Assembly (NCBI RefSeq): GCF_030817535.1
Contig: NZ_JAUSZL010000002.1
Location: 310,001 to 374,000, forward strand
DNA: 64,000 nucleotides
Direction: 5' to 3'
From: Streptomyces sp. V3I8
Lineage (GTDB): Bacteria > Actinomycetota > Actinomycetes > Streptomycetales > Streptomycetaceae
Under the pieces are notes generated by a model. The model did not search any database. It was not told the DNA's origin and saw only the letters and a list, made by a program, of their open reading frames with translations. Made by a program: the position numbers and the translations under genes. Shown piece after piece: positions 29,761 to 44,957 of this stretch (positions within the stretch are counted from its first letter, which is position 1; the number at the start of each line of letters is the position of its first letter).

Positions 29761-29894
29761 GATTTCGTAGCTCTTCATGATGGTTCTGTGGGTCATGGCC
29801 GCTACACGCGCCGGGCTGGGCGTGTGTCCCAACCCGGTTAGGTAGAGGCACTCATCGGGCAGGCCCGGAATCGTCGGGCCGCAGAAGACAGGTG

Positions 29895-30434
29895 ATGGAA
29901 ATGCGAACTGAGGCCGCCAAGCGGGTCGAACTGGTCTTCTCCCTATTCGACGCCAATGGCAACGGAGTCATCGACTCCGAAGACTTCGACCTGATGACGG
30001 GCCGTGTTCTGGAGGCGGCGGCCGCGTCGGACGACGGCGCCAAGGCCGCCATCCGGGCTGCGTTCCGCCGCTACTGGACGACGTTGGCCACTGAACTGGA
30101 CACCAACGGCGACGGGGTGATCACCCTGGATGAGTTCCGTCCGTTCGTGCTCGACCCCGAGCGTTTCGGTCCCACGATCACTGAGTTCGCCGAGGCGCTC
30201 GCCGCACTCGGCGATCCCGACGGGGACGGCCTGATCGAGCGCGCTCTCTTCGTGTCGCTGATGACGGCGATCGGCTTTGAGGAGGCGAACATCCACGCCC
30301 TCTTCGACGCCTTCGGGCCGGACGCCGAGGACCGCATCACCGTGGCTTCGTGGGCCGTGGGCATCGAGGACTACTACGCGCCGGACATGGCCGGGATCCC
30401 GGGCGACCAGCTCGTGGCTGCCCGGGCCCTCTGA
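29895..30434 (+). CDS. EF-hand calcium-binding protein
   Basis: A 179-residue calerythrin-like protein with three recognisable EF-hand loops, DANGNGVIDSED, DTNGDGVITLDE and DPDGDGLIERAL, and a degenerate fourth near DAFGPDAEDRIT. No signal peptide, so it is cytosolic and probably buffers or senses calcium. The start is ATG 29895 (ACAGG upstream; GTG 29892 and ATG 29901 are alternatives). A second EF-hand gene lies at 40510. The 80-bp dispersed repeat upstream may be part of its control region. It converges with the methyltransferase gene. Confidence 0.9.
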   Translation: MEMRTEAAKRVELVFSLFDANGNGVIDSEDFDLMTGRVLEAAAASDDGAKAAIRAAFRRYWTTLATELDTNGDGVITLDEFRPFVLDPERFGPTITEFAEALAALGDPDGDGLIERALFVSLMTAIGFEEANIHALFDAFGPDAEDRITVASWAVGIEDYYAPDMAGIPGDQLVAARAL

Positions 30435-30604: not shown

Positions 30605-31585
30605 TCATGGCCGGGGCTTGTGCGCGAACACCCACCGGTTTCCCTCCAGCGCGTCGTTCGGCTCGGGAAGGGGGCCATGTCCGTGCCGACGGGTGAAGTC
30701 GAAAGGCGTGTACATCGAGGTGGACCAGCCCTTGGCTCTCAGGGCGCCTGCGGAGTCGGGTCGTGGCCCCTTGTCGAAGAGGTGGAGCAGGTCGATGCCG
30801 ATCTGTTCTCGCGTCGCCGTGTAGATCGGGCTGTCGTGGTACGCCAGCAGGTCCTTTTCCAGCTTGGCCTCGAAGGCCAGAGCGCTGCCTTTGGCGGTCA
30901 GCTTGTCCACCGTGTCGATGACGTGCGTCTCGGCAGGGCCCGGCAGGTAGAAGAGGAGTCCCTCGGCCAGCCAGACGCTCGGTGCGGCCAGGTCGAAGCC
31001 GGCGCCGGTCAACGCGCTGACCCAGTCCGTGCGCAGGTCGGCCGGTACGGCGACACGCTTCGCTTTCGGGATGGCCGCCAGGTCGGTGAGCACCCGGTGC
31101 TTGAACTCCAACACACCCGCCCGGTCGATCTCGAAGACGGTGCAGCCGGATGGCCAGTTCAGCCGGAGGGCGCGGGTGTCCAGCCCCGCCCCCAGCAGGA
31201 CAACCTGCCGGGGGCCCGTCCGGACCGAGCGGAGCAGGAAGTCGTCGAGGACCCTGGTACGCAGGCCGAAGTAGCGGGCGAACCGCCCCCACAGCGGGTC
31301 GCCGTCCCCGTCCGGGACCTGCTCGATGCGCACCGGCCAGTCCGCGCACGCCGGGGCGGCGCGGACGAAGTGTTCCGCGTAGGCGTCCCGGGCCAGGCTG
31401 TCGTCGCGGTGGGTCTCGATCGTCCGTGCCGCGGCGACCAGGAGGGCGGTCAAACCCACGCCGCCGTCCACGCCTTCCACATCCGTATGTTGCGGCGCCG
31501 TGCCGGTCATGCTGCCTCCGTTGCGGGGGGGGAGTTGTCCAGATGCCGGACGAGATGAGTTCTCGGTGCCGCGTGCCTCGTTCAC
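30605..31585 (-). CDS. SAM-dependent methyltransferase (LCMT/TIGR00027-type)
   Basis: A class I methyltransferase of the leucine-carboxyl-methyltransferase-like family common in actinobacteria. SAM motif I is VVLLGAGLDTRALRLN, followed by FEIDRAGVLEFKHRVL, LAEGLLFYLPG and a final RWVFAHKP. GTG 31585 overlaps the alcohol dehydrogenase stop (GTGA) and has GAGAGGAC upstream, giving 326 residues. ATG 31510, with GGAGG four bases before it, is an alternative giving 301 residues, closer to the conserved domain. As last gene of the furan operon it may methylate a carboxylate or hydroxyl of the pathway product (inference). Confidence 0.85.
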   Translation of the reverse strand: MNEARGTENSSRPASGQLPPRNGGSMTGTAPQHTDVEGVDGGVGLTALLVAAARTIETHRDDSLARDAYAEHFVRAAPACADWPVRIEQVPDGDGDPLWGRFARYFGLRTRVLDDFLLRSVRTGPRQVVLLGAGLDTRALRLNWPSGCTVFEIDRAGVLEFKHRVLTDLAAIPKAKRVAVPADLRTDWVSALTGAGFDLAAPSVWLAEGLLFYLPGPAETHVIDTVDKLTAKGSALAFEAKLEKDLLAYHDSPIYTATREQIGIDLLHLFDKGPRPDSAGALRAKGWSTSMYTPFDFTRRHGHGPLPEPNDALEGNRWVFAHKPRP

Positions 31586-32688
31586 CGGCTTGTCCTCTCC
31601 GGGAGCAGGACGGGTTTGACTACGCGGCCGGCGTCGCAGTCGCGTTCGGCCTCGTTGATGTCGGTCAGCGGGTAGGTGCGGATGAGCTGGTCGAAGGGGA
31701 AGCGTCCGGCCTGCCAGAGCCGGGTGAGCAGCGGTACGAGCAGTCCGGGGACGGCGTCCCCTTCGCAGATGTGGCGGATGCTGCGGCCCCGGTCGAGTGT
31801 GCCCGGTTCGAGCGGCAGCGCGGTGTGGAGCCGTGCCACCAGGCCGAGGCTGCCGGTCGGGCGCAGTGCCCGGAGCGCGTCGTTGATGAGCGGTGCGGAG
31901 GCCGTGGTGTCGAGCGCGTACTGTGCGCCGCCGCCGGTGAGCCGCCGGATCCGTTCGGCCCGTCCGGCCGTTTTGGCGTGCAGCGGGATCGCGCCGAACC
32001 GTTCGGCCAGGGCCAGCCGCCGGGGATGCCGGTCGACAGCCACGGTCAGCGCACCTGCGGCGGTGGCCGCCATCACTGCGGCGAGCCCCACGGCTCCCGC
32101 GCCGAAAACGACGAGGGTGTCACCCGGGCTGGCGGCGAAGGTGTTCAGCACGGCTCCGGCGCCGGTGAGGAAGCCGCAGCCGAGGGGCCCGAGCAGTTCG
32201 ACGGGCAGTGCGGGGTCGACCCGGACGGCGTTGCGAGCCGGAACGAGCGCGTACTCGGCGAAGGAGGACTGGCCGAACCACCGGGGGGCCAGCGCTCCCC
32301 CGGTCGCGTCGGTGAGCTGCCGCGTGTCCTCCTTGCGTCCCCCGAAGAGGTTGAGGGAGGCGAAGGAGTCGCAGTAGGCGGGGGCCGCGCCACGACAGTT
32401 GCGACAATGGCCGCAGGAGTCGAAGCTCAGTACGACGTGGTCGCCGACGCCGATCGTGGCGTCCGGGCCGTCGCCCGTCCGCACCACGACCCCCGACCCT
32501 TCGTGGCCGAGCACTGCCGGCAGCGGGCTGTTGCCGGCCGATCGCCGGACCGCGAGATCGGTCCGGCACATCCCGCAGCCGGCGATCTCGACCAGGATCT
32601 CGCCGACGGCGGGTTCCGTTCGCAGGGCCACCTCCTCGACCGTGAACGGATCCTCGTAGGAGCGCAGTACGGCCGCCTGGAACCTCAC
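31582..32688 (-). CDS. Zinc-dependent (aryl-)alcohol dehydrogenase
   Basis: A 368-residue medium-chain dehydrogenase. Catalytic-zinc ligands are in CGMCRTDLAV and VLGHEGSGVV; the structural-zinc lobe has four Cys in CGHCRNCRGAAPAYC. The NAD-binding motif is VVFGAGAVGLAAVMAA, followed by AVDRHPRRLALAERFGA. The IASLNLFGG-like loop (SFASLNLFGG) is typical of aryl-alcohol (benzyl-alcohol) dehydrogenases. GTG 32688 has GAGGGAGAGGG upstream and overlaps the ALDH stop (GTGA). With the aldehyde dehydrogenase and the furan synthase it could interconvert a hydroxymethylfuran and its aldehyde. Confidence 0.9.
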   Translation of the reverse strand: MRFQAAVLRSYEDPFTVEEVALRTEPAVGEILVEIAGCGMCRTDLAVRRSAGNSPLPAVLGHEGSGVVVRTGDGPDATIGVGDHVVLSFDSCGHCRNCRGAAPAYCDSFASLNLFGGRKEDTRQLTDATGGALAPRWFGQSSFAEYALVPARNAVRVDPALPVELLGPLGCGFLTGAGAVLNTFAASPGDTLVVFGAGAVGLAAVMAATAAGALTVAVDRHPRRLALAERFGAIPLHAKTAGRAERIRRLTGGGAQYALDTTASAPLINDALRALRPTGSLGLVARLHTALPLEPGTLDRGRSIRHICEGDAVPGLLVPLLTRLWQAGRFPFDQLIRTYPLTDINEAERDCDAGRVVKPVLLPERTSR

Positions 32689-34100
32689 CGTGATCCCTCT
32701 CCCTCCTCCGGGCGGTGGACGACGAATGGCCGCAGGTTGCCGTACAGCCCCCATGGTCCGCCCGCCACGCCGACGCCGCTGTCCTTGACGCCCGCGAAGG
32801 GCTGGGCGAGGGACAGTTCGGCGTGGTGGTTGATCCAGGCCGTGCCGCATTCGAGCCGGTCGGCCACCGCCTCGGCCCGGTCGGGGTCGGTGCCCCACAC
32901 GGAGCCGCCCAGTCCGAAGCCGGTGCCGTTGGCGGCGTCGACGGCTTCGCCGAGGCTCCGGTACGGCAGCACCGGCAGGACCGGCCCGAACTGCTCCTCG
33001 GTCACCACCGGGCTGTCGGGCGGGACGTCGGTGAGGATCGTGGGGGCGAAGAAGTAGCCCCGCCCGGCCAGCCGGTGACCGCCGGCCGCCGCCCGGGCGC
33101 CGTCCGCCAGGGCTCGCTGCGTGATCTGCTCGACCCGGGCCAGCTGTGGGGCGTTATTGACCGGTCCCAGCCGAGTGTCCGGGTCGAGGCCGTGCCCGAC
33201 GGCGACGGTCCTGGCGCGCTCGGCGAGGGCTTCGACGACTTGGGCGTGGAGGCGGGCCGGGACGTAGACGCGTTTGACTGCCATGCAGACCTGCCCGCAG
33301 TTGCGGAAGGCGGCCCAGAACAGCCGGTCCGCGATCCGCTCCACCTCGACGTCGTCCAGCAGAACAGCGGCGTCGTTGCCGCCCAGTTCCAGGGTGACTC
33401 GGGCGAGCGAGGCCGCCGCCGCTTCGGCGACGGCCCGCCCGGTGGGCACCGAGCCCGTGAAGGTGACGTGGCGGATGCCGGGGTGGGAGGCGAGGCGGGC
33501 GCCGAGCGGTTCGCGGCCGGTGACGACGGTCAGCACGTCCTCGGGCAGGACGGTGGCGAGGACGGAGCCGAGCAGCCGGGTGGCGAGCGGGGTGAAGGGA
33601 GACGGTTTGAGGATCACGGTGTTGCCCGCCGCGAGGGCGGGCGCGAACTTCGCCGCCGCGAGCTGGAGGGGGAAGTTCCACGGCACGATCGCGGCGACGG
33701 GTCCGAGGGGGCGCCAGCGGATCTCGCTGTGCACGGGACGACCGTCGGTGATGTGTCGGGTCCTGGGGGCCAGGTCGGCGAAGTAGCGCAGGCGGGCCGC
33801 CGTACGGGCGATCTCCGCGTGTGACTCGCCCAGGGGCTTGCCCTGTTCCCGGGTGAGCAGCCGGGCGAGGTCGTCGGCGGCCGCCTCCACGGCGTCGGCC
33901 GCCGCGCGCAGAGCAGTGGTGCGGGCGGCGGGATCGGCGCGCCAGCCGTGCCAGGCCCGGCGGGACCGGTCGACGACGGCGTCCAGTGCGTCCGGCTGCT
34001 GGTCGGGGATCTCGTCGAAGATCTCCTCGGTGGCCGGATCGACGACGGCCAGAGGCGAGGCCCGGTGCCCGGGGACGTGGTCGGGCTCGGAGGTCGGCAT
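32685..34100 (-). CDS. Aldehyde dehydrogenase
   Basis: A 471-residue NAD(P)-dependent aldehyde dehydrogenase. Landmarks: IVPWNFPLQLAAAKFAPALA (nucleotide pocket), LKPSPFTPLA, FTGSVPTGRAVA, the general base in VTLELGGNDAAVLL, the catalytic cysteine in FRNCGQVCMAVKRVYV, and EEQFGPVLPVLPY. The start is ATG 34100, eight bases after the furan-synthase stop. Length is slightly shorter than most ALDHs (about 480-500). Oxidation of a furan aldehyde to the acid is the attractive pathway role, but this is inference. Confidence 0.92.
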   Translation of the reverse strand: MPTSEPDHVPGHRASPLAVVDPATEEIFDEIPDQQPDALDAVVDRSRRAWHGWRADPAARTTALRAAADAVEAAADDLARLLTREQGKPLGESHAEIARTAARLRYFADLAPRTRHITDGRPVHSEIRWRPLGPVAAIVPWNFPLQLAAAKFAPALAAGNTVILKPSPFTPLATRLLGSVLATVLPEDVLTVVTGREPLGARLASHPGIRHVTFTGSVPTGRAVAEAAAASLARVTLELGGNDAAVLLDDVEVERIADRLFWAAFRNCGQVCMAVKRVYVPARLHAQVVEALAERARTVAVGHGLDPDTRLGPVNNAPQLARVEQITQRALADGARAAAGGHRLAGRGYFFAPTILTDVPPDSPVVTEEQFGPVLPVLPYRSLGEAVDAANGTGFGLGGSVWGTDPDRAEAVADRLECGTAWINHHAELSLAQPFAGVKDSGVGVAGGPWGLYGNLRPFVVHRPEEGEGSR

Positions 34101-34108
34101 GCCCGCGG

Positions 34109-34864
34109 TCAGCTCACGGCGGTGACGCCGACCGCGTGCTCCCGGGCCTGCCGGTCCATCTCCGTCCGGAAGGCGGCCACCAGGCGCGGTCGGATCCGTC
34201 CGGCATTGCGGTCGCCGCCCTCGCAGACCGCTCCGCGCACCCCGACGATGTCCGTGCCGATGCGGGTCAGCGGGCCGAGGTCGGCTTGCTTGACACTGCC
34301 CGCGAGGGCGGCAAGCAGGCCGGCGGCGTGGGCCAGGCGGACGAACTCGGCGCAGGCGTCCGGCGGAACGTGGTCGAACAACCGCGTCCCGTCCTTGATC
34401 GCGGTGTCGAGCATGGCGGCGTCGGCGCCGGAGCGGGCGGCGATGTCGGGCAGGGCGAGCGGGTTGACGCAGCCGATCCGGTGGGCGTCGGCGTAGCCGG
34501 AGGCGACGACGAGCGCGTCGGAGCGGTGGTCCTTCACCGCGCGGACGACCGCGCGCATGACCTCGATGCCCTGGTCGGGCGTCGTGCATCCGTAAAGGCC
34601 GACCTTGATGTACGTGGCGCCGGAAACGACCGCGCCGAGCGCGGCCTGCGCCACCGTGCCGGGCTTGTACGGGACATCCCCCACGGTCGCGGACACCGGC
34701 TTGTCCGCCGGCACCGCGTCGCGGATCTCCCGGATCACCCAGGGGAAGTTCGCACCGAGAGAGCCCTCGTCAGGCTTCTTGACGTCGACGATGTCGAGAT
34801 GCTCCGCCGCCTTCGCACAGTCGAGAGCCTCCTCCACACCGTCCGGGGAGATGAGAAGCAACAC
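34109..34864 (-). CDS. mfnB: MfnB-like (5-formylfuran-3-yl)methyl phosphate synthase
   Basis: A 251-residue TIM-barrel enzyme of the MfnB (DUF556) family, which in methanogens condenses two glyceraldehyde-3-phosphates into 4-(hydroxymethyl)-2-furancarboxaldehyde phosphate for methanofuran. GTG 34864 follows AAGGAG by six bases and gives the family-typical start [15 protein letters not shown]. Conserved: Asp27 and Lys29 ([20 protein letters not shown]), Lys87 (YIKVGLYG), Asp153 and Lys157 ([15 protein letters not shown]). A longer open frame to 34957 lacks a ribosome site. It heads an operon with ALDH, alcohol dehydrogenase and methyltransferase. Streptomyces does not make methanofuran, so a furan secondary metabolite or cofactor is likely. 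Confidence 0.9.
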
Positions 34865-34947
34865 CGTGAACTCCTTCCGCCGCCAGTCCGCCCGGCCAAG
34901 GGACAGGGGACCGCGGATTATCTGGTTCATGGGCGGTGTGCTCATCA

Positions 34948-34966
34948 TTCCCGTCACCCACGGGAA
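34948..34966. promoter_or_regulatory. Inverted repeat TTCCCGT-N5-ACGGGAA upstream of the furan operon
   Basis: Perfect 7-bp arms (34948-34954, 34960-34966) lie 84-102 bases upstream of the furan-synthase start. Size and position fit a dimeric-repressor operator or a leader hairpin. Confidence 0.5.
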
Positions 34967-34984
34967 CTGGTAGGGCGCGCAGAG

Positions 34985-35110
34985 TGTCTATCGGCGCTCA
35001 TACCCACATACAATGCGCCGTATATAAGGCAGCAAAACATGCACAATGGCAATATTTTATTAATCTAATGAACTTATTGTAATACTAGATATAACTAGTA
35101 TGCCTTTCTG
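34985..35110. promoter_or_regulatory. Strikingly AT-rich island upstream of the furan operon
   Basis: Bases 35041-35100 contain only 14 G/C of 60 (23%) in DNA that is otherwise about 70% GC. It includes ATACTAG-N6-CTAGTAT (35082-35101), a perfect 7-bp inverted repeat. The island lies between the furan operon and a plus-strand membrane-protein gene. It is probably a control region, perhaps silenced by Lsr2-like proteins; horizontal origin is possible. From 35111 to 35205 nothing is recognised apart from two ACCGGT palindromes near 35178-35197. Confidence 0.6.
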
Positions 35111-40509: not shown

Positions 40510-41061
40510 ATGCCCGACGTCCTGGACCGCAAATTGAAGAAGGCTTTCACCCTTTTCCAGGGGGAAGACAAGTCCACTCCGATCGGCCGGAGTTACTTCG
40601 CCGGCCTCGCCCACCATCAGGCGGGCACTTTCCCGGGCGCTCCCGCCTCGAAAATCGAGGATCTGGAGGATTCGTTCACCACGTTCTGGGATCGCTATCT
40701 CGCGCAGCGGTCGGCCGCTGACGGAACGCTCACCGGCGAGGGGTTCTCGTCCGCGATCGCCTCCGCCCTCGATACTGACCGGGAGGCGTTCCTGGCCGAC
40801 ATCGGCAACGTCTCCCGGTGCTGGTACGCCATGGCCGACACCAACGGCGATCACGTCATCCAGCGGGACGAGTACACCAAGATGTACGGATCGCTGTTCC
40901 CTCTTCTCACTGCGGAGGAACTCGCCACCGGTTTCGCGAAGATGGACCGCGACGGAAACGGTGTGATCAGCCATGAGGAGATCCGCGCCGCGTCGCTCGA
41001 ATACTGGACGAGCAACGATCCTGAGGCCCGTGGCAACTGGCTGTTCGGTCCCTTCGAGTGA
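40510..41061 (+). CDS. EF-hand calcium-binding protein, second copy type
   Basis: A 183-residue calerythrin-like protein. Two strong EF-hand loops are visible, DTNGDHVIQRDE and DRDGNGVISHEE, with degenerate hands in the N-terminal half (around LFQGEDKSTPIGRSYF). AAGGAGGA lies seven or eight bases before ATG 40510, a strong ribosome site. It is only distantly similar to the EF-hand protein at 29895. The terpene-cluster P450 starts 184 bases downstream, so co-transcription is possible. Cytosolic; calcium-sensing role inferred. Confidence 0.9.
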   Translation: MPDVLDRKLKKAFTLFQGEDKSTPIGRSYFAGLAHHQAGTFPGAPASKIEDLEDSFTTFWDRYLAQRSAADGTLTGEGFSSAIASALDTDREAFLADIGNVSRCWYAMADTNGDHVIQRDEYTKMYGSLFPLLTAEELATGFAKMDRDGNGVISHEEIRAASLEYWTSNDPEARGNWLFGPFE

Positions 41062-41244
41062 GCTGGTGTCTCTGAGGTTCGGGCAGGGTGGGCGTCGGGC
41101 CGCCGTGCGGTTCCGGCACGCGCTGCCACCGCAGTGCATGACGGTGCCGGCGGCAGTGCGGAAACAAACAGCGGAAACCGCATTCCGCCGGAAGCCTAGG
41201 TGGCCGGCGGCAGTCGTCCATGCCGAGTACCCGAGGTGACGCAG

Positions 41245-42504
41245 ATGACCGGCCCCGACATCCTCTCCGCGAAGTACGCGGCTGATCCCTATCCGCACTA
41301 CCGGCAGATGCTCACCTCCTTCCCTCTCTACCGTCATCCGGAGACCGGGTTCTACCTGGTCAGCCGTCATGCCGAGGTGACCCGGGTCTTACAGAAGGCG
41401 CCGTTCACCAACGAGATCTACACCTGGCAGCTCGAACCGGTGGCAGGCGGGCAGACCATCGTGCAGATGGACGGGGAGGAACACGCCTACTATCGGCGGC
41501 TGATGAGCGCGCCACTGCGCGGATCGAACTTCCGTGAGTGGATCGTCCCCGAGATCGAGCGCATGTCGGCCGGGCTCATCGAGGCGTTCCGGGAGCGTGG
41601 CTGGGCAGACCTGCGTGCGGACTATACGGACTTGCTGCCCTGTGACGTGGTGTCCACTCTGCTCGGCCTGCCCGCGGAGGACCGATCGACGTTCCGGCGC
41701 TGGTTCATCAACATCAACGCGTTCATGTCCAACTTCGGGAAGGACCCCGCCGTTACCGCAGCCGGGCTGGCCGCCAGGACGGAGATGACCGAGTACCTGC
41801 GCCCCCTCGTCAAGGACCGGCGGGCACGTCCCCGCGACGACCTCCTGTCGGCCTTCTGCCATGCGGAGATCGACGGCATCCCCCTCAACGAGGAGCAGAT
41901 CCAGGCGCACTGTTCGACCCTCATCGCGGCGAACGGGGACGGGACGAGCGCCACGATCATCTACACGCTGAAAGAGCTGCTCCTGCATCCTGAGCACCTC
42001 CAGGCCGCACTGCACGACAGAAGCCTGATCGATCGGATGCACCTGGAGGCGACCCGGCTGAATCCGCCGGTCCACATGCTTCTGCGGTTCGCCGCCCAGG
42101 ACGTGGACCTGCCCGGTGGGCACATCCCCGCCGGGGCGACCGTCGCCTGTGTCGTGGCTGCTGCCCAACGGGACCCCGCCCGGTTCCACGAGCCCGACGT
42201 CTTCAACCCCTACCGTGCGGAGATCGATCCGGTCCGGGACTTCACGCCGGGCGGCTCCATCGTGCACTTCGGCAAGGGGCGGCATTACTGCCTGGGCGCA
42301 CACATCGCCCGGATCACCGTCTCCACCGCCGTCACCCAACTGCTCGACGCGCTCGCTGACCTCCGTCTCGCCGAAGGCGCCGTCCTGGACGAGAAGGGCA
42401 TCTTCACCCGCAATCTCACGAGGCTCCCGATCGCCTTCACACCCGCACCGCCCGATGCGGGCACGGCCGTCCGCCAAAGGACCGCTTCGGCCGGCCTCGC
42501 GTGA
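41245..42504 (+). CDS. Cytochrome P450 with a bldA-type TTA codon
   Basis: A 419-residue soluble bacterial P450. Heme loop: FGKGRHYCLGAHIAR with Cys349. I-helix: LIAANGDGTSATI, with Asn-Gly-Asp in place of the common Gly-x-Glu/Asp-Thr, so the acid/alcohol pair is somewhat unusual. The ExxR motif is LEATRLNPP. ATG 41245 has GAGGTGACG upstream. Codon 49 (41389-41391) is TTA, the rare leucine codon read only by bldA tRNA, the usual mark of developmentally controlled secondary metabolism. It lies 96 bases upstream of the pentalenene-type synthase and probably oxidises its product. Confidence 0.9.
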   Translation: MTGPDILSAKYAADPYPHYRQMLTSFPLYRHPETGFYLVSRHAEVTRVLQKAPFTNEIYTWQLEPVAGGQTIVQMDGEEHAYYRRLMSAPLRGSNFREWIVPEIERMSAGLIEAFRERGWADLRADYTDLLPCDVVSTLLGLPAEDRSTFRRWFININAFMSNFGKDPAVTAAGLAARTEMTEYLRPLVKDRRARPRDDLLSAFCHAEIDGIPLNEEQIQAHCSTLIAANGDGTSATIIYTLKELLLHPEHLQAALHDRSLIDRMHLEATRLNPPVHMLLRFAAQDVDLPGGHIPAGATVACVVAAAQRDPARFHEPDVFNPYRAEIDPVRDFTPGGSIVHFGKGRHYCLGAHIARITVSTAVTQLLDALADLRLAEGAVLDEKGIFTRNLTRLPIAFTPAPPDAGTAVRQRTASAGLA

Positions 42505-42600
42505 TCGACCCGGCACGACTGTGCTGGACCGCACTCACCTCGGGCCATGGCCCGAGCGACGGGCACATGCCGTCGGACCCATCCAGGAAGGGAGCAAGGC

Positions 42601-43605
42601 GTGCCTCAAGACATCGAGTTCTTCATGCCGATCCCGTCCCGCCGCAGCCGGGATTACGAACGAACCCAAGCTCACCACCTGTCCTGGCCCCGGACGCTTG
42701 GCCTCATCAACTCCGAAGCTGCCGAGCAACGTCACCTCCAGGCCGACTACGCCGACCTGGCTGCCCGCTTCTACCCATCCGCCACCGGACCGGACGCGGA
42801 TCTGGGCGTTGACCTGATGACGTTCTTCTTCCTGTTCGACGACCTGTTCGACGGCCCGCGCGGTGAAGATCCCACGGCAGCACGCGCCCTCACCGACGCC
42901 GTGGCCGCCGCACTCGACGGGCCACTGCCCGCCGAGGCCCCGGCCATCGCGCACGGATTCTCCGACGTCTGGAGGCGGACCCGCCAGGGAATGTCACCGG
43001 CGTGGTGTGCGAGGGCCGCCCTGACGTGGCACGGATACCTTGCGGGCTACGTGGACGAAGCCGCAAGCCGCCACCGCCATGCGCCCTGTGCCTCGATGGC
43101 CGAATACCTGGCCGTGCGCCGCCACACCATCGGGGCGCAGCCGACCGTCGACCTCGCCGAACGAGTAGGCCATTACGAAGTGCACCAGGGCCTCTTCGAC
43201 AGCGCCGTCATCGCCGCGATGCTGCGGATCGCCATCGACACCAACCTGATCGACAACGACATCGCCTCGCTGGAGAAGGAAGAGGCCCGTGGGGAGCGGA
43301 ACAACATCGTCCTGGTCGTCCAGCGAGAGAGAGGCTGGCCCGTTTCGCGCTGCATCGCCCACCTGCAGGACGAGGTGCGCACCCGCCTCGAACAGTTCTT
43401 GATGCTGGAGGACTGCCTGCCGAAGGTCTACGACTCCTACGGCCTGCCCGCCGCCGAACGCGTCATTGCGGACACATATCTCAACGACGGGATCCGCGCG
43501 CTCATCCGCGGAGCCTACGACTGGCACCGGCGCTCCGGACGCTACTCGTCCGAGTACGCGATTGCGGCCGGACGCCTCGGCTACCTGGAGGAACTGGGCG
43601 CATGA
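42601..43605 (+). CDS. ptlA: Pentalenene synthase-type sesquiterpene cyclase
   Basis: A 334-residue class I terpene cyclase that closely follows pentalenene synthase. GTG 42601 has GAAGGGAG upstream and gives the family-typical MPQDIEFFMPIPSR. Active-site residues fall at the numbers known for the S. exfoliatus enzyme: Phe76, Phe77, Asp80, Asp81, Asp84 (FFFLFDDLFDG), the NSE triad Asn219, Ser223, Glu227 (NDIASLEKEEARGE), and Trp308/His309 before the Arg-Tyr pair (YDWHRRSGRY). It should cyclise farnesyl diphosphate to pentalenene or a close relative. The stop overlaps the next P450 start (ATGA). The standard pentalenolactone genes are not nearby. Confidence 0.93.
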   Translation: MPQDIEFFMPIPSRRSRDYERTQAHHLSWPRTLGLINSEAAEQRHLQADYADLAARFYPSATGPDADLGVDLMTFFFLFDDLFDGPRGEDPTAARALTDAVAAALDGPLPAEAPAIAHGFSDVWRRTRQGMSPAWCARAALTWHGYLAGYVDEAASRHRHAPCASMAEYLAVRRHTIGAQPTVDLAERVGHYEVHQGLFDSAVIAAMLRIAIDTNLIDNDIASLEKEEARGERNNIVLVVQRERGWPVSRCIAHLQDEVRTRLEQFLMLEDCLPKVYDSYGLPAAERVIADTYLNDGIRALIRGAYDWHRRSGRYSSEYAIAAGRLGYLEELGA

Positions 43606-44957
43606 TCCCCCTGGCACCCGGAGCGCTGCCCCTGGCAGGCCACGCCCACTCCATCATCCGTAACCCCCTCGGTTTCCTCCGCACCCTGGCACCGTACGGA
43701 GACATCGTCAGGGTCCGGCTCGGACCGATCACGGCCCTGGTGCTCTGCGACCCCGCGCTGGTCCGGCAGGTCCTGCTCAACGACCGGCTGTTCGACAAGG
43801 GCGGGCCCACCTACGAGCGGGCGCGCGAGTTCCTGGGCGACAGCCTCTCGACCTGCCCGCACAGCCGGCACCGCCAGCAGCGTCGACGTCTGCAGCCCGC
43901 GTTCCATGCCACGAAACTCCCGCAGTACACGCGGACGATGACCGATCAGATCGGTGTGGTCACCCGCACCTGGCGCGACGGCCAGAGCATCGACGTCATG
44001 GCGGAGACCAAGAAGATCACGGTCCGGGTCCTGACCAGGTCGATCTTCGGGACCGACCTGTCCGATCGGGAGATCGAGCAGATCAGCCACGGCATCGACG
44101 ACCTCACCGCGGGCATGCATGCCCGCATGTTCCTGCCGGCTCCGCTGGACAAGCTGCCCACACCCCGCAACGTCCGATACCACCGGGCTAACTCCACCAT
44201 CCGGGAAATCGTCCAACGGCTCATCGACGAGGACCGCAGCCGGCCCACCGGCGCCTCCGGCTCCGAGACCCTGCTCGGCATCCTGACAGCCGACGACTGG
44301 GCCGACGGGCCCCTGTCCGACGCCGACATCCTCGACCAGGCGACATCGTTCCTTCTGGCCGGTATGGAGACGACGGCCGAAGCCATGGCCTGGGCGCTGT
44401 GCCTGGCAGTACAGCACCCCGAGGTCATGGCACGGCTGCGCGCCGAGACTGCCGAAGTCCTCGCCGGGGCGCCGGCGCAGTGGGAACACCTGCCGGATCT
44501 GAAACTGACCACCTCGATCATCAGCGAGACCCTGCGCATGTATCCCGGGCTGTGGGTCACCACCCGGGTCGCCACCGCGGACACGAAACTGGGCGAACAC
44601 CTCATCCCGAGCGGGTCCCACCTGCTCATCAGCCCCTACCTGCTGCAGCACCGTCCCGAGATCTATCCGGATCCCGACCGCTTCGACCCCGGCCGGTGGA
44701 CCGACCCCGATCCCAGCAGACCGCTGGATGCCTTCATCCCGTTCATGGCGGGCGCCCGCAAATGCATGGCCGCCGACTTCGCCGTCACCGAAGCAGTCCT
44801 CACCCTGGCTACCCTCACCGACGCCTGGGACTTCACTGCTCCAGCACAACGCCCCCAAGCAGCAGCCGCCGCCACCCTGCGTCCCAAAGACCTATCCATG
44901 CGCGTCACGAGGAGAGACCGACGCCCAAGTTTTCAGCAATCAGACCCGGTCCTTTGA
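43602..44957 (+). CDS. Cytochrome P450, pentalenene oxygenase-like position
   Basis: A 451-residue P450 coupled by ATGA overlap to the terpene synthase, like ptlI next to ptlA in pentalenolactone clusters. The N-terminus PLAPGALPLAGHAHSIIRNP is proline-rich. I-helix: FLLAGMETTAEAMAWAL. ExxR: SETLRMYPGLW. Heme loop: FMAGARKCMAADFAVTEA with Cys388; the usual Gly two residues after the Cys is Ala here. The most likely job is hydroxylation or stepwise oxidation of the sesquiterpene. PtlI identity is by context, not proven. Confidence 0.88.
   Translation: MIPLAPGALPLAGHAHSIIRNPLGFLRTLAPYGDIVRVRLGPITALVLCDPALVRQVLLNDRLFDKGGPTYERAREFLGDSLSTCPHSRHRQQRRRLQPAFHATKLPQYTRTMTDQIGVVTRTWRDGQSIDVMAETKKITVRVLTRSIFGTDLSDREIEQISHGIDDLTAGMHARMFLPAPLDKLPTPRNVRYHRANSTIREIVQRLIDEDRSRPTGASGSETLLGILTADDWADGPLSDADILDQATSFLLAGMETTAEAMAWALCLAVQHPEVMARLRAETAEVLAGAPAQWEHLPDLKLTTSIISETLRMYPGLWVTTRVATADTKLGEHLIPSGSHLLISPYLLQHRPEIYPDPDRFDPGRWTDPDPSRPLDAFIPFMAGARKCMAADFAVTEAVLTLATLTDAWDFTAPAQRPQAAAAATLRPKDLSMRVTRRDRRPSFQQSDPVL

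Follow-up and report, generated by a model that had tools for sequence, protein, structure and literature searches.

A conserved Streptomycetaceae gene cassette headed by the furan synthase MfnB is a candidate route to a small furan ester

MfnB travels with a conserved set of enzymes in Streptomyces

A four-gene set encoding MfnB, an aldehyde dehydrogenase (ALDH), an alcohol dehydrogenase (ADH) and a methyltransferase (MT) is real and is conserved over the genus Streptomyces far more than chance would allow. We estimate a probability of roughly 50% that this cassette is a dedicated small-molecule pathway, leading from sugar phosphates to a small furan acid methyl ester. More tentatively, and at less than even odds, Streptomycetaceae may have recruited the furan synthase of methanogens to make one or more methyl esters of furan-2,4-dicarboxylate, a biosynthesis that would be undescribed and patchy in its distribution. 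The product would possibly serve as a volatile signal, and a Ca2+-binding EF-hand protein would be the partner of carboxyl methyltransferases that also occur in other small-acid cassettes. If true, about a quarter of the sampled Streptomyces genomes (70/295) would harbour a short, so far unrecognised path linking central metabolism with a furan ester, MfnB would have a second biological role besides methanofuran, and there would be both a natural biosynthesis of 2,4-furandicarboxylate (2,4-FDCA) and a new candidate volatile or signal. All chemistry after MfnB, the product and any signalling role are what we infer from sequence.

The window, a 64,000-nucleotide stretch of the 9.3 Mb genome of Streptomyces sp. 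V3I8, contains the following features:

34933..34981, strand not assigned: conserved block of DNA ahead of the operon, probably its promoter/operator (148 distinct upstream regions aligned)
34109..34864, minus strand: mfnB, (5-formylfuran-3-yl)methyl phosphate (4-HFC-P) synthase (NF002573, PF04476, MJ1099/4RC1, invariant catalytic residues)
32685..34100, minus strand: aldehyde dehydrogenase, ALDH (PF00171, 466.8 bits; nearest solved chain 8YEN; nucleophilic Cys in 153/153)
31582..32688, minus strand: zinc-dependent MDR alcohol dehydrogenase, ADH, benzyl-alcohol-dehydrogenase-like (PF08240, PF00107; 5TNX, 1F8F; zinc ligands in 162/162)
30605..31585, minus strand: LCM-family (leucine carboxyl methyltransferase-like) SAM-dependent methyltransferase, MT (PF04072, TIGR00027; SAM motif in 160/160)
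29892..30434, plus strand: EF-hand protein of calerythrin-like type, its gene convergent with that of MT (PF00036/PF13499; three DxDGxG-type loops)

The initial annotation had described a tightly packed four-gene set at 30605..34864. All four open reading frames were found there, on the minus strand, and coordinates and junction sequence bear out the packing, with 8 bp between mfnB and the ALDH gene and GTGA overlaps at both the ALDH/ADH and ADH/MT junctions. The start of MfnB is the GTG at 34864, preceded by GGAAGGAG; an in-frame upstream extension is broken by a stop or frame change in many relatives. Since MT in distant relatives starts later, lies at least 100 bases from ADH or is inverted, overlap of ADH and MT is not general to the cassette; inversion relative to MfnB was seen in 8/80 named, 4/69 genus and 6/15 family loci.

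Co-occurrence was assessed in several genome samples. A named genome collection yielded 202 MfnB relatives, of which the best 80, hence the nearest ones, were kept; among these 80 the closest relatives are from Streptomyces, and ADH and MT lie beside MfnB in 80/80. A less biased sample consisted of 295 genomes drawn from the genus, where PF04476 hit 73 genomes; setting aside three weak partial hits left 70, the V3I8 genome included. ADH at ≥77% identity and MT at ≥69% identity were each found in 70 of these 295 genomes (two of the ADH matches, in G119 and G224, being partial), and the three genome sets are identical. The next-best copies are only 51% (ADH) and 66% (MT) identical. Because the genomes of a genus share ancestry, the Fisher value for this co-occurrence overstates the evidence; the identity gap is independent of that value. 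Mirror-tree distances within the cassette gave r of 0.55-0.74 over 80 loci, calculated without an unlinked control gene and not counted as evidence.

We read 69 loci from the genus sample, 16 from a family sample and 2 from a phylum sample. At 156 loci (78 named, 63 genus, 14 family and the window itself) the contig runs on for 4 kb or more after MfnB; these are not independent cases, as some species occur in both the named and the genus sample. ADH is present in 156/156, and MT passes the coverage rule in 155/156, the exception (L138) being cut at the stretch edge and complete in the genome-wide MT search. Nine short-contig loci were set aside; the whole set is visible in five of them, and in the other four it is cut by the contig end or lies beyond it. 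Further afield, MfnB was found in 20/101 family-sample genomes and in 6/396 phylum-sample genomes, of which one is weak and three are Streptomyces. No cassette was seen at three distant MfnB loci: L196 (53% identical), L198 (46%) and L197 (46%), the last on a contig that ends about 840 bases after MfnB and so offers less than a complete test.

Taken together, these data agree with the initial annotation in that the four proteins behave as one unit, travelling with MfnB across Streptomycetaceae. The neighbourhood analysis of MfnB homologues that it had proposed found the set conserved: far from never co-occurring with these enzymes, MfnB is accompanied by ADH and MT in 70/70 genomes. The EF-hand gene at 29892-30434 had been missed.

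MfnB retains the catalytic residues of the methanogen enzyme

MfnB scores 391.6 bits against the NCBIfam equivalog NF002573, above the cut-off of 341, and 266 bits against PF04476. In the PDB, MJ1099 (4RC1) alone is related to it at E≤0.001, with a full-length match, and the positions equivalent to MJ1099 D25, K27, D151 and K155 are invariant across 165/165 MfnB loci. We take Asp25 and Asp151 to be further catalytic positions of MJ1099, beside the two lysines. In the available text of the sources, Lys27 is the Schiff-base residue (PMC6604932) and Lys155 is also named (PMC11365854), and archaeal MfnB makes 4-HFC-P from two glyceraldehyde-3-phosphates (PMC6604932). The S. coelicolor gene SCO6440 is named mfnB in the portion available of PMC7581861, among the genes up-regulated in an AbrB1/B2 mutant.

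Methanofuran biosynthesis in methanogens and methylotrophs thus shares its first enzyme with this operon, as the full-length match and catalytic residues indicate, but leads on to an aminotransferase and a kinase, where the Streptomyces set has ALDH, ADH and a methyltransferase. A role in making a methanofuran-like coenzyme would accord with the characterised role of MfnB (PMC6604932, available text) and with a Burkholderiaceae region, seen in part of PMC9088363, that pairs MfnB with a formylmethanofuran dehydrogenase subunit in the classical context. However, the conserved set holds no aminotransferase or kinase, and neither FTR nor MCH was found: FTR (PF01913) is absent from 121/121 genus genomes, V3I8 included, with two methanogen controls positive, and MCH (PF02289) from the V3I8 genome, with three archaeal controls positive. 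We therefore consider this reading highly improbable, and use of a methanofuran-type coenzyme is rejected on the missing FTR (121 genus genomes) and MCH (own genome).

A different MfnB-like gene was observed in a family member outside the genus (L196:648-7696). Its product, 53% identical, reaches 270.6 bits with NF002573 (cut-off 341) and so falls short, and has Glu in place of Lys27; the gene adjoins UbiA, amino-acid-kinase, aminotransferase and AMP-binding/short-chain-dehydrogenase genes, the kinase exceeding the isopentenyl phosphate kinase cut-off. This locus is perhaps another furan or prenyl natural-product cluster.

ADH and ALDH suggest stepwise oxidation

The best PDB matches of ADH are 5TNX (300 bits) and benzyl alcohol dehydrogenase 1F8F (265 bits), followed by a match at 152 bits, and its three catalytic and four structural zinc-ligand positions are kept in 162/162 sequences. 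An Asp at the end of beta-2, which favours NAD and oxidation, is found in 161/162. The nearest solved relative of ALDH is 8YEN (398 bits; next 285), and the nucleophilic Cys is kept in 153/153 sequences. Both enzymes score far below every NCBIfam equivalog cut-off, which weakens any assignment of their substrates. A benzyl-alcohol-dehydrogenase-like ADH with an ALDH is the usual alcohol-to-acid pair, and the two fit stepwise oxidation from alcohol to aldehyde to acid. They resemble pairs of the XylB-XylC type, a benzyl alcohol dehydrogenase with an aldehyde dehydrogenase, in the proximity of ADH to 5TNX and 1F8F and in the ALDH alongside; unlike those, they follow a ring-forming enzyme in an operon that looks biosynthetic.

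ALDH coverage is at least 90% in 146/156 loci. In the other 10 it is missing or degraded while MfnB, ADH and MT remain (L032, L037, L070, L085, L112, L117, L126, L141, L166 and L191), so ALDH is dispensable or replaceable; the losses seem likely to be independent. Such loci lend some weight to a reductive route, in which ADH would turn the furan aldehyde by reduction into 2,4-bis(hydroxymethyl)furan, MT would make an ether or methylate another group, and ALDH would be a side branch. Bis(hydroxymethyl)furans and their acetates, of the 2,5 type, appear among Streptomyces products in the available text of PMC9966152. This route is nevertheless unlikely in our view, given the nearly invariant beta-2 Asp, the intact ALDH at most loci and the membership of MT in a carboxyl-methylating family.

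ADH/ALDH pairs also commonly detoxify aldehydes, and no export gene belongs to the conserved set, both of which would suit a clean-up of triose phosphates or furan aldehydes under stress, with no dedicated product. Yet MfnB would produce a reactive aldehyde rather than remove one, and the strict co-occurrence of MT with MfnB (70/70 genomes) is better explained by biosynthesis; we give the clean-up reading little chance of being correct. The oxidative, biosynthetic reading is the one developed below.

The methyltransferase belongs to a carboxyl-methylating family and is often paired with an EF-hand protein

MT scores 180.1 bits against PF04072 (cut-off 22.3) and 247.7 bits against TIGR00027, also over the cut-off, and its SAM-motif positions are kept in 160/160 sequences. 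Its nearest solved relatives, ML2640 and Rv0731c, are both annotated as 'putative' methyltransferases. It thereby resembles LCM-family enzymes (LCMT-type and the bacterial TIGR00027 proteins) and differs from them in lying in an operon with small-molecule enzymes. Known members of the LCM family methylate carboxyl groups, so a methyl ester appears likelier as the MT product than a C-methylated furan. The expectation in the initial annotation of small methylated furans is thus adjusted as to the probable site of methylation.

In the 295 genus genomes, 19 MT paralogue hits fell below 69% identity, and 17 of their loci were read. These are 53-66% identical, 15 in MfnB-negative genomes and two as second copies in MfnB-positive ones. 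An EF-hand gene lies in the same stretch in 15/17; the neighbours include an Iso_dh-like gene (9/17) and an isochorismatase-like gene (5/17), as judged by scanned representative. These are other small-acid enzymes, which supports the reading that MT acts on an acid. MT is thus part of a wider EF-hand/methyltransferase pairing that has been joined to different enzyme sets. Sets of EF-hand, Iso_dh-like, in some cases isochorismatase-like, and MT genes were observed in genomes without MfnB at L205:5302-8502 and also at L203, L204, L206, L208 and L215; this is apparently an undescribed small-acid cassette.

The EF-hand protein of the window matches PF00036 and PF13499, with canonical loops at residues 20, 70 and 108, and we liken it to the bacterial calerythrin group. 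The calerythrin-like proteins here share with that group a size of 177-180 aa and three canonical EF loops; unlike it, they are tied to a methyltransferase family, which is present (E≤1e-80) in 67 of the 70 genus genomes (out of 295) that have the EF protein (E≤1e-35). The gene lies near the cassette at 41/81 loci of the named set with the window, at 27/69 genus loci and at 1/15 family loci. Its orientation varies: convergent behind MT, upstream of MfnB and divergent from it, or same-strand. It is a frequent but not obligatory fifth partner: 17/70 cassette genomes have no EF hit, and 26 of the hits in cassette genomes lie away from the cassette, so the protein is not essential.

Two ideas about the EF-hand partner were discarded. 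Methylation of its C-terminal leucine by MT was suggested by the window protein, which ends in Leu, but relatives end in many different residues. A common metabolic context for cassette-distant EF genes was sought at 20 loci (17 from cassette genomes, three from genomes without the MT family) and gave a transporter neighbourhood in nine and nothing metabolic.

A proposed pathway to a 2,4-disubstituted furan ester

Judging from its family and active-site residues, MfnB would join two molecules of glyceraldehyde-3-phosphate into 4-(hydroxymethyl)-2-furancarboxaldehyde phosphate. A host phosphatase from outside the cassette would free the hydroxymethyl group, which ADH may oxidise to an aldehyde; ALDH would convert the aldehyde or aldehydes to carboxylate, giving 4-hydroxymethyl-2-furoate or furan-2,4-dicarboxylate, and MT would cap the carboxylate or carboxylates as methyl esters. 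The predicted product is a furan ester with 2,4 substitution, small enough to diffuse or evaporate; dimethyl furan-2,4-dicarboxylate is one example. Speculatively, Ca2+ may tune the MT step via the EF-hand protein.

Flanking genes vary between genomes: of 81 neighbourhoods, no more than 7 share any gene (clustered at ≥45% identity) other than those of the cassette and the EF-hand protein, which argues that the pathway consists of these enzymes. Counting against it, the 81 neighbourhoods have no recurrent phosphatase, transporter or regulator; dephosphorylation is therefore supplied elsewhere or absent. The sequence of dephosphorylation, oxidation or reduction, and methylation put forward in the initial annotation is thus plausible in its oxidative part, which ADH and ALDH fit, and lacks a linked enzyme for its first step.

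The same neighbourhoods bear on whether the cassette supplies a furan unit to some larger natural product, the remaining genes lying elsewhere in the genome. The cassette has no transporters or tailoring enzymes and its flanks differ, so that further steps would be unlinked; against this, the EF-hand gene is the only one to recur beside it, and methyl esterification caps a molecule instead of preparing it for coupling. We regard this reading as distinctly unlikely.

Dimethyl 2,4-furandicarboxylate is listed in a GC-MS table of a Streptomyces extract (S. malaysiensis 8ZJF-21), in the portion available of PMC9131080, and its 2,4 pattern is that of MfnB as opposed to the 2,5 pattern of 5-hydroxymethylfurfural. 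The listing agrees with the pathway as a weak hint, being a library match in a table that includes unlikely compounds, for a methyl ester that may come from the solvent. Other Streptomyces furans in the available texts are of the 2,5 type (PMC9966152, PMC12502620) or methyl 2-furoate (PMC9568536), and count against a 2,4 ester. In line with the initial annotation, which knew of no pathway with exactly this set, no described pathway or product for the operon was found in the literature searched, mostly outside subscription journals.

The methylenomycin furans of S. coelicolor (MmfL, MmfH, MmfP) are likewise small Streptomyces furans, with signalling reported in the available text of PMC6604932, where MmfL couples dihydroxyacetone phosphate to a beta-ketoacyl thioester. 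Here, in contrast, MfnB forms the ring, which is predicted to carry 2,4 substituents and no alkyl chain; none of the four operon proteins matches the MmfL-type ring-forming family at E≤0.001 (NCBIfam, Pfam).

Upstream DNA and a neighbouring cluster

Alignment of the 148 distinct upstream regions revealed a conserved block 69-117 bases before the MfnB start, probably part of a promoter or operator. The conserved ATGATGAGC had suggested a leader peptide ahead of mfnB, an idea that was rejected: indels shift the frame between species, and conserved promoter DNA is likelier. Upstream of the operon, positions 34985-35100 are A+T-rich in a window of 70% G+C; relatives' upstream regions average about 28% A+T, and this stretch is thus not a general cassette feature.

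Elsewhere in the window, an EF-hand gene distinct from the first (40510-41061) is followed by genes for a P450 (41236-42504) and a terpene synthase (42601-43605) and by a P450-looking open reading frame (43602-44957); 40510-44957 is a probable terpene cluster.
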